35,030 nt of DNA from a virus: IMG/VR virus record IMGVR_UViG_3300011115_000232, positions 1 through 35,030 of that record. The stretch is one strand, 5' to 3'. Under the pieces are notes generated by a model, which saw only the letters and a program-made list of their open reading frames with translations, had not been told where the DNA came from and did not search any database. The position numbers were made by a program, and so were the translations under genes. Shown here piece by piece: positions 4,587 to 22,016 of this stretch (position 1 is its first letter; every line of letters starts with the position of its first letter).

Positions 4587-5573
4587 TTAAAAAAATGATT
4601 CAAATAATTTAGCAGCATCACGGACTTTGCCGGACTGCTTCAATTGTTGGTGTTGACGTTTAACCTGTTCAGATGTGGTTGGTTTAACACCGTTGCCACT
4701 CTTAATAGTCTTAGACGCATCGCTAACCCTTTTGTTTACATCAGGCTTAGCTTTTTGTAATTTGTCGTATAGCATTGCTTTATGCAAAACTAATACTTGA
4801 CGAGAGTCACGAACCATCTTTAAATCGTCATCAGAAAAGCCAATGTTCTTAGCGAATGAACGCATGTCGGAACGTAGTGCTTCCCCCTTAACTGGGTCAG
4901 TATATTCAGGTAACACTTCAGCTAACTTAGCAGATTGTTGAGCTAGGTATTGTTGCAATGCTTGCTGTTGCTCCGCTTGTTGCTGTTCTGCAATGCGTTG
5001 ACGTTCAGCTTGAACTGCTTGTAACTGCTCTTTCTGTTGAGATAACTCAGCGACCTTGACTGCGTATCCAATCGGGTCAGACTCTTTTAAATATTCTAGG
5101 TTCTCACTTTGCTCTGGTGCAGACAGCAACTGCTCCATTGCTTGCAATCGTTCAGCGTAGGCATCTCTCAAGTACCTAGCTTCTTCGATAGCCTTAGACT
5201 CGGCTTCTAGAGCCTTGCGTTGTTCGGCTACTTGTTGCGTTTTCTTAGTGTAGTCAGCGCCCTGTTGTGCAAGTGATTTAAGTTCACTCAAGGTTAGTTC
5301 TTTTTCCTCGCCAGATACAGTTACTGAGAACGTTTGTTCTTGTTCCTGCTCCTCTGGTTCAGCTTCAGACTCCTCTTGTGGCTCATCATCTGCCCAATCG
5401 TCTGCACTACCTTCACTAACTTGGTCATCTTCTTGATTATCTGACTGCGCTTCAACTTGCCCTTCTTCGGGTGCTTCTGCTGCATCCATCAAACCTAAAA
5501 ATGCACCTGCTGCGTCTTGTACTGTTGTACCTTGTGACTGGCTTTCACTCCCTTGCGGGTTGGTGGTTTCCAT
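4587..5573 (-). CDS. Scaffolding protein
   Basis: 328 residues. The N-terminal third is extremely acidic and Gln/Glu-rich (EEPEEQEQEQ), the middle ~110-230 is a long Gln/Glu/Ala coiled coil (QLQAVQAERQRIAEQQQAEQ), and the C-terminus is basic (KQSGKVRDAAKLFESFF). Such an acidic, helical, low-complexity protein between portal and capsid genes is the usual form of a podovirus internal scaffold, with the basic C-terminus binding capsid. The assignment rests on composition and gene order. Confidence 0.8.
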   Translation of the reverse strand: METTNPQGSESQSQGTTVQDAAGAFLGLMDAAEAPEEGQVEAQSDNQEDDQVSEGSADDWADDEPQEESEAEPEEQEQEQTFSVTVSGEEKELTLSELKSLAQQGADYTKKTQQVAEQRKALEAESKAIEEARYLRDAYAERLQAMEQLLSAPEQSENLEYLKESDPIGYAVKVAELSQQKEQLQAVQAERQRIAEQQQAEQQQALQQYLAQQSAKLAEVLPEYTDPVKGEALRSDMRSFAKNIGFSDDDLKMVRDSRQVLVLHKAMLYDKLQKAKPDVNKRVSDASKTIKSGNGVKPTTSEQVKRQHQQLKQSGKVRDAAKLFESFF

Positions 5574-10850: not shown

Positions 10851-10871
10851 AATTAACTCCTTAGGTTAATT
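10851..10871 (-). promoter_or_regulatory. RBS hairpin of the HNH-AP2 gene
   Basis: Directly upstream of the ATG (10850-10848) is a perfect 7-bp stem, AATTAAC/GTTAATT, whose 7-base loop CTAAGGA contains most of the Shine-Dalgarno (AAGGAG). Ribosome access would depend on this structure. Translational control of homing endonuclease genes by hairpins at the RBS is known in T4-type phages; that it applies here is inference. Confidence 0.6.
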
Positions 10872-10942
10872 CCTTATTTAAAAGATTATGGCAGGATAGT
10901 AAGGTTCTATCTTTTCGGTCGCTAAACCTAGCCTAATCTAAA

Positions 10943-20612: not shown

Positions 20613-20888
20613 ATGGCAGCATACAATGACGTAACTGGTGATGCCTTAGTATCACGGACACTAAGCGAAAAAGGATCAGAAGCCTTTGATCGAATCTTTG
20701 GTGAGAAGAAAAAGACAAATGGCGGGTGGACTCCACCAGCTATCTCTCAAGATCCATTGTGCAAGATATGTGGAAAGGTTCTATCAACGACTAAAGAATG
20801 TGCATGGACTGGGTGCGAGCTGAACTGGAACGAATCTAGGATTGATGCTATTGGGTCAAACGGTAACGAAGGCTTGCACTATGATTGA
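20613..20888 (+). CDS. Small zinc-finger-like phage protein
   Basis: 91 residues. MAAYNDVTGDALVSRTLSEK, GSEAFDRIFGEKKK, then TNGGWTPPAISQDPLCKICG and a second Cys pair (ECAWTGCELNW). The N-terminal block recurs in aquatic phages; CxxC...CxxxxC suggests zinc binding. TAGGAG precedes the ATG. Function unknown. Confidence 0.72.
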   Translation: MAAYNDVTGDALVSRTLSEKGSEAFDRIFGEKKKTNGGWTPPAISQDPLCKICGKVLSTTKECAWTGCELNWNESRIDAIGSNGNEGLHYD

Positions 20889-21084
20889 AGTGCGTCTTGC
20901 TGAGTTGCCTGAAGGTCATCCATTGCGGAATACTTCATTAGTAGAGATTAATGCAGAATATCTACCGGTAGATAGCAAGGTGTGGGCAACTGTGAGAGAT
21001 AGTTATGGAATCGCCCAAAAGACATATAATCAGTTGGGCGATAGTTGGACTACTTGGGATGTATGGCGTGTTACTTATTCATAA
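20881..21084 (+). CDS. Last early gene, unknown, convergent with pqqA
   Basis: 67 residues from ATG 20881 (GAAGG eight bases upstream; overlaps the preceding stop). MIEVRLAELPEGHPLRNTSL, EINAEYLPVDSKVWATVRDS and WTTWDVWRVTYS suggest a small beta-rich protein. Its last 14 bases overlap the 3' end of pqqA on the opposite strand. Confidence 0.62.
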   Translation: MIEVRLAELPEGHPLRNTSLVEINAEYLPVDSKVWATVRDSYGIAQKTYNQLGDSWTTWDVWRVTYS

Positions 21085-21142
21085 TATAACAAGTTACCTC
21101 AAAGCCCCAGCGCATTTCTACTGCATTTGGTTTTGTCCACAT
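21071..21142 (-). CDS. pqqA: PqqA, precursor peptide of pyrroloquinoline quinone (PQQ)
   Basis: 23 codons plus TAA. The peptide begins MWTKP (1-5) and ends RWGFEVTCYIMNK (11-23). PqqA peptides of the Klebsiella type are 23 residues with MW-K-KP, R11, G13, E15-V16-T17-x-Y19 and N22; all are present here in register. In the pathway PqqE with PqqD cross-links this Glu and Tyr, proteases release the unit, and PqqB/PqqC finish PQQ. AAGGA lies eight bases before the ATG. It is the last gene of the leftward late set, after the metallophosphoesterase. No other pqq gene is present, so the host must supply the enzymes. Confidence 0.9.
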   Translation of the reverse strand: MWTKPNAVEMRWGFEVTCYIMNK

Positions 21143-21179
21143 GTTTAAATTCCTTATAAATTTATACACGACATTGTGT

Positions 21180-21212
21180 ATATGTACACATAATGCACTT
21201 TTGTGTACATAT
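21180..21212. promoter_or_regulatory. 11-bp inverted repeat upstream of pqqA
   Basis: ATATGTACACA (21180-21190) and TGTGTACATAT (21202-21212) are perfect inverted copies with an 11-base spacer. An overlapping smaller palindrome TGTGTA-TATG-TACACA covers 21175-21190. It lies in the 97-bp gap between the metallophosphoesterase stop and pqqA. It has no T-run on either side, so an operator or an mRNA hairpin is more likely than a terminator. Confidence 0.55.
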
Positions 21213-21239
21213 CAGCATCAGTAAAATCATTATATACCT

Positions 21240-22016
21240 CTAATAATTATATCGTTCTTTTAAATACTTAATGGACACCGCCATCTCATCGTATGCGCCA
21301 TCATGCACGTCATGCAAGACATAGAATCCACGCCAATGCTGATTTCCTTGTGCGCCTAAGTAGTCCTCATCATGCTCGTAAAAACTACCTGAGATAATAG
21401 CTGTCATCTCGTGACCATCAGCTCGTCTGCCGTATGAGATCATGCGTCCTTGTTGATGCCCTGCAAAACAACTCATGTGCTTTTTTGTAAGTAAGGCTGC
21501 AGCAGTTGTGATAGGACGCCCCATAACGCCAGAGGTAAAGTAATGACTATAAGCAATGCCGTCAATAGTAACAACATCGAGAAAATCATACACTTCCCAA
21601 TCTTGGTACGGTAGATCTTCCGTAGATATAAGCCCATCTAGTTTACGATCCTCGTTAATCGCTCTGTTAATTCTGTTCTCATGGTTTCCTAATGTTAGCA
21701 CCATGCGAGGCTTGTATTGCTTATGCTTACTACTTTTAGCCGACTTGTTATATTCATACAAAGGTGTAAGCAAAGCATCCATAGCTTCACGAGCTGCCCA
21801 AATATCTTTTTGGTAACTCCTACCCTCAAAGGATTTTAGTCCTCTGTCATAGGTGCTTAAACTTTCCATGTCGGCAAAGTCACCAATACATACAATCACG
21901 TCTGGTTGCTTCTTTACTATAAAGTTACCTAAACATTTAAGATAGGTAAAATCGTTTCCTTCTTTTGCTTGCACATCAGGCACAATTAAGTGCGTGATAG
22001 GTTTTTTGGTTTCCAT
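21240..22016 (-). CDS. Calcineurin-like metallophosphoesterase
   Basis: 258 residues. Metal-binding motifs in order: VPDVQ (Asp14, with Gln in place of the usual His16), CIGDFAD (Asp46), TLGNHE (Asn111-His112), YSHYF (His158) and GHQQG (His187). DMESLSTYDRGLKSFEGRSY is typical of a phage branch of this family. It hydrolyses phosphomonoesters, phosphodiesters or nucleotides; the substrate cannot be read. Located between lysis genes and pqqA. GAGAGA precedes the ATG. Confidence 0.85.
   Translation of the reverse strand: METKKPITHLIVPDVQAKEGNDFTYLKCLGNFIVKKQPDVIVCIGDFADMESLSTYDRGLKSFEGRSYQKDIWAAREAMDALLTPLYEYNKSAKSSKHKQYKPRMVLTLGNHENRINRAINEDRKLDGLISTEDLPYQDWEVYDFLDVVTIDGIAYSHYFTSGVMGRPITTAAALLTKKHMSCFAGHQQGRMISYGRRADGHEMTAIISGSFYEHDEDYLGAQGNQHWRGFYVLHDVHDGAYDEMAVSIKYLKERYNY

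Follow-up and report, generated by a model that had tools for sequence, protein, structure and literature searches.

Results

The pqqA Locus and Its Carrier

The DNA analyzed is a virus record of IMG/VR, and its whole length of 35,030 nucleotides is referred to as the window. A gene of 23 codons plus TAA, pqqA, lies on the minus strand at 21142-21071 and encodes the peptide MWTKPNAVEMRWGFEVTCYIMNK; its ATG is at 21142-21140, the final sense codon runs to 21074, and the stop TAA is at 21073-21071. The gene and the features around it are as follows.

20884..21084, plus strand: small convergent gene of unknown function from the ORF table, without a Pfam match; its 3' end overlaps the 3' end of pqqA by 14 nt
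21071..21142, minus strand: pqqA, above the curated cut-offs of TIGR02107 and PF08042, with orthologues in Methylophilales phages and IMG/VR contigs
21151..21155, minus strand: Shine-Dalgarno AAGGA, read from the sequence, 8 nt before the ATG; relatives have AAGGA(G) in the same place
21163..21182, minus strand: 5'UTR hairpin TATACACAATGTCGTGTATA, a predicted fold with only moderate support
21190..21195, minus strand: -10-like hexamer CATTAT, exactly 20 nt after the box, which is the modal spacing
21216..21235, minus strand: pqqA box ATATAATGATTTTACTGATG, a dyad and putative activator site; best match to the position weight matrix (PWM) in the whole window, with a similar box found de novo upstream of host pqqA
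21240..22016, minus strand: calcineurin-like metallophosphoesterase (PF00149, phrog_221), the same-strand neighbor of pqqA, whose homologues served as a synteny anchor

The initial annotation had proposed a 23-codon PqqA frame at 21071-21142 behind a correctly spaced AAGGA. Both the frame and the AAGGA (21155-21151) were confirmed; the span does hold the gene, and the strand, which had been omitted, is the minus strand. The plus-strand reading of 21071-21142 is not PqqA. Comparison with a TIGR02107-type model, which had been suggested as a check, gave 27.4 bits (E=2.2e-6; curated cut-off 20), and PF08042 gave 27.9 bits (E=2.3e-6; curated cut-off 21.1). These curated models establish the encoded peptide as PqqA. 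With a PqqA HMM derived from relatives, the window ORF scored 54.7 bits vs at most 9.3 bits in 30 order-1 Markov shuffles of the window; the match, far above the shuffled controls, is not due to chance.

The gene also satisfies the length criterion for PqqA (22-25 residues with its own start and Shine-Dalgarno sequence), and its peptide contains the Glu-x3-Tyr pair for PqqE cross-linking as Glu15 and Tyr19. An in-frame upstream GTG start, giving 32 amino acids, was disfavored, the ATG with its Shine-Dalgarno sequence being the conserved start in relatives. The peptide is divergent at Trp12, Cys18, and Asn6; our scan found no relatives sharing its Trp12/Cys18 core, and a PDB search with the peptide returned no meaningful match. 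The usual, though not defining, location in a pqq operon is not met, as the record has no PqqE or PqqD match. The earlier statement that the genome holds no other pqq gene thus stands for PqqE and PqqD only: a PQQ-alcohol-dehydrogenase was likewise not matched in the record, PqqB, PqqC, and PqqF were outside the search, and an ORF extends past the left end of the record, which may therefore be incomplete.

The window belongs to a tailed phage: it encodes a terminase, a phage-lysozyme family endolysin, and ORFs of portal and capsid size. Its terminase shares 66% identity with the counterparts in Methylophilales phage Venkman and in ctXG6705; the host of the window phage itself is inferred from such related phages. 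Elsewhere in the window, the Rfam int-alpA RNA (RF02996) scored above its gathering threshold at 10871-10938 on the minus strand.

pqqA in Phage Isolates and Viral Contigs

A tblastn search of 50,697 phage records with the 23-mer matched only 10 records, namely nine phages of cultured Methylophilales/Methylophilaceae (Venkman, MEP301, MEP401, MEP402, P19250A, and four Melnitz phages) and ctXG6705. The isolates fall into several unrelated groups, with MEP401/402 in the Zobellviridae, Melnitz in the Kyanoviridae, and others besides. The pqqA phages of cultured Methylophilales carry terminase, portal, and capsid genes, indicating that these are genuine phage genomes, with hosts in the matching guild. 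The gene is annotated as pqqA in none of the ten records, and the annotations of Melnitz and ctXG6705 place a "hypothetical protein" across it on the opposite strand. These overlying proteins (at 4961-5056 of locus L006 in Melnitz-1 and 2067-2195 of locus L008 in ctXG6705) are likely annotation artefacts.

Terminase-related phages of other hosts (Pelagibacter, Vibrio ICP2, and Lentibacter) gave no PqqA match. One groundwater phage, MW202697.1, has a terminase 75% identical to that of MEP402 and no PqqA match, and could serve for a comparison of hosts that have PQQ with hosts that lack it. Isolates beyond the searched set are possible (the taxonomy lists MEP431-434 and Venkman EXVC038S), and we do not claim that every isolate carries pqqA. 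PqqA-like matches were also seen in two draft "Acinetobacter phage MD-2021a" records (CAKLQF020000010.1 and CAKLQH020000055.1), possibly in host DNA; because these two drafts may contain such DNA, they were excluded from the evidence for phage pqqA.

A back-translated scan of IMG/VR yielded at least 120 contigs with pqqA. The frame was intact in all those listed, with a clear Shine-Dalgarno sequence in nearly all. Other ORFs homologous to reference methylophages were present on 94 of the 120 listed contigs, 73 of which had at least three; the remaining 26 had no ORF homologous to reference phages, so that some of these 26 could be mis-sorted host DNA. The initial annotation had proposed looking for the peptide in related phages, and besides the Methylophilales phages it was found at loci anchored on the metallophosphoesterase: of 80 such loci, 48 carry pqqA 90-3901 nt downstream of the anchor and on the strand that encodes it. 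Where at least 3.5 kb of downstream sequence was available, 35 of 52 loci had pqqA and 17 had none in reach. These data indicate that pqqA is not a rarity of the window phage.

Selection on the Peptide

PqqE joins a Glu and a Tyr of PqqA, Glu16 and Tyr20 in M. extorquens numbering (PMC10906245). Loss of this pair or of the frame in related phages had been named in advance as refuting the assignment, and no such loss was encountered: Glu15 and Tyr19 were kept in 120 of 120 IMG/VR contigs listed by a search whose pattern left residues 15 and 19 free, and in 49 of 49 distinct genes from a search in which no residue was pinned. In the latter set, W2, T3, P5, E9, R11, G13, E15, T17, and Y19 were invariant. 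Synonymous divergence (pS) was 0.55 and nonsynonymous divergence (pN) 0.14, giving a pN/pS of 0.25 across the 49 genes. The window copy was among the more divergent (mean pN of 0.23 to the others) and kept all invariant positions; other phage variants, such as MAWTKPSAVEHRIGFEITCYAMCR, had diverged while preserving these residues. Many phage copies were identical in protein to host copies. The analysis showed that phage pqqA is under purifying selection.

We considered whether the peptide could be a decoy that occupies host PqqD/PqqE and throttles PQQ synthesis rather than feeding it. A peptide that merely titrated these proteins would be indistinguishable except at the catalytic residues, and the residues expected to mediate PqqD/PqqE binding are indeed kept. 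However, Glu15 and Tyr19 would be dispensable for a decoy, yet they are invariant in every set that left both free, and we regard this explanation as improbable.

The Region Upstream of pqqA

Scanning the window with the box PWM gave 18.5 bits directly upstream of pqqA, the next best match being 9.7 bits. De novo motif discovery in phage pqqA upstream regions returned TTAATGATTTTCcttAtg in ∼87% of them, at a median of 92 nt before the ATG, and an independent run on host Methylophilaceae pqqA upstream regions returned cTCATGAaatTCaTtAG in ∼92%, at a median of 127 nt. The match between the phage and host motifs was better than all 500 column permutations. The top box match in the sequence scanned lay directly upstream of pqqA in the window, MEP301, P19250A, and the Melnitz stretch, all of which belonged to the motif training set of 157 sequences. 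In Venkman and ctXG6705 the best box match was not directly upstream of pqqA, and in MEP402 the upstream match was only the third best.

The spacing from the box to the -10-like hexamer peaked at 20 nt (33 of 130 usable phage pqqA upstream regions), and the shuffled control was flat. The 5'UTR fold had a mean z of -0.93 +/- 0.12 in viral sequences and -0.56 in host sequences; no Rfam family was found at the pqqA 5'UTR. In Venkman, MEP301, and ctXG6705, pqqA is antisense to the surrounding early genes and is followed by stable hairpins, as expected of a gene whose promoter and end are its own. Judged by these sequence features, the promoter-like region resembles that of host pqqA genes, and the window gene is apparently under a copy of the host pqqA switch.

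The host box itself is near-palindromic, cTCATGAwwwTCATtAG, and precedes most Methylophilaceae pqqA genes; a second TTCATGA half-site often lies ∼21 nt beyond it. One contig of a metagenome-assembled genome, CAIYXB010000030.1, shares its upstream pqqA box exactly with phage P19250A, and the genome has no pqqE match; for these reasons the contig is probably of phage origin and was binned with bacterial sequence.

A promoter box of host type, together with the protein identity of many phage copies to host copies, would also be seen if host pqqA and its promoter had recently been captured as passenger DNA without benefit to the phage. That explanation is already unlikely by the selection test, given that pN/pS is 0.25 and that the phage copies differ by many synonymous changes, and it has to contend with the presence of pqqA in several unrelated phage lineages and with residue-preserving diverged variants such as MAWTKPSAVEHRIGFEITCYAMCR; we consider it very unlikely. 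The shared box also suggests a common regulator, through which phage PqqA might act as a signal holding the host on a PQQ-dependent program, or the peptide might yield a product other than PQQ, but the window encodes no PqqE- or PqqD-family processing enzyme and there is no specific evidence for another product, leaving this idea hardly tenable.

pqqA Copies in the Hosts

Host-side genomes (n=8) carried 1-12 pqqA copies vs 0-2 pqqE genes over the cut-off, and most host Methylophilaceae pqqA copies were located away from pqqE. In the literature, these hosts have 3-12 pqqA genes and a single pqqBCDEFG set (PMC4109929). Many pqqA genes with few pqqE genes fit a substrate that is consumed once per cofactor molecule. 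At five loci of OM43-type hosts we observed two tandem pqqA genes ∼200 nt apart with different leaders, the first copy being the variant MWTQP[QT]ATEMRFGFEVTMYVCN[RK].

The reading of the gene as an auxiliary supply of precursor, put forward in the initial annotation, gained support from this dosage logic and from the host link, since the isolates with the gene infect Methylophilales methylotrophs; a PQQ benefit during infection remains an inference. In Acetobacter, PQQ rose by only 29% with pqqAB vs eightfold with pqqABCDE (PMC7936290). Because dosage effects of pqqAB alone are modest there, the size of any benefit to the phage is open.

Discussion

We propose that the window carries a functional phage pqqA that acts as a substrate-dosage auxiliary metabolic gene for host PqqE/PqqD and thereby sustains methanol dehydrogenase, with a probability of roughly 0.8; expression and function are inferred. 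After infection, the gene would be transcribed by the host's own regulator and RNA polymerase. The 23-mer would then be bound by host PqqD and cross-linked between Glu15 and Tyr19 by host PqqE, and PQQ could be completed by host proteases, PqqB, and PqqC. The extra PQQ would keep PQQ-dependent methanol dehydrogenase (XoxF/MxaF) supplied during phage replication. The precursor alone would suffice because one PqqA is consumed per PQQ, whereas each enzyme molecule can be reused. It is unproven that infected cells are limited in PQQ by their supply of PqqA.

Beyond the window, there is a reasonable case that methylotroph phages have repeatedly acquired the complete host-type pqqA cassette (box, promoter, 5'UTR hairpin, and gene), so that infection raises the dose of a consumed precursor under the host regulator, and that this substrate-only gene is common in aquatic Methylophilaceae phages and has been missed since genes of 23 codons are discarded in gene calling or lose out to a call on the other strand.

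The window gene resembles bacterial PqqA of the Methylophilaceae multi-copy type in length and in the motif W-T-x-P-x3-E-x-R-x-G-x-E-x-T-x-Y, as well as in its orphan site away from pqqBCDE, its box, its 5'UTR hairpin, and its Shine-Dalgarno sequence. Unlike bacterial PqqA, it is phage-borne and has the unusual residues Trp12 and Cys18.

Phage pqqA itself has been reported before. A T4-like virus of Lake Baikal has a PqqA described alongside methanol dehydrogenase (PMC7678222), pqqA is among the viral genes listed from a reservoir (PMC13188868), and in the papers on cultured OM43 phages the phage genomes are described without mention of pqqA. What appears to be new is the spread over several lineages, together with the selection test and the box of host type. 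The Lake Baikal virus, VP_266, is a Methylophilaceae virus for which support of methanol oxidation was proposed, in line with our reading of the window. In VP_266, however, PqqA accompanies a phage methanol dehydrogenase (PMC7678222), whereas the window gave no PQQ-alcohol-dehydrogenase match, and the two lineages differ, the window terminase being nearest to those of Venkman and ctXG6705.

Like auxiliary genes of the psbA/mazG/phoH type, phage pqqA is a metabolic gene of host type that evolves under purifying selection in phages belonging to a single metabolic guild. It differs from them in supplying a consumed precursor peptide rather than an enzyme, and in its host-like promoter region. For auxiliary genes this suggests a rule, that the consumed substrate is carried and not the catalyst. 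Because cultured phage-host pairs with pqqA exist, whether PqqA supply limits cellular PQQ synthesis becomes testable. Among aquatic methylotrophs, OM43 and Methylopumilus are abundant. Routine supplementation of PQQ by their phages would mean that viruses affect the oxidation of methanol in lakes and coastal seas by way of a 69-nt gene overlooked in annotation.
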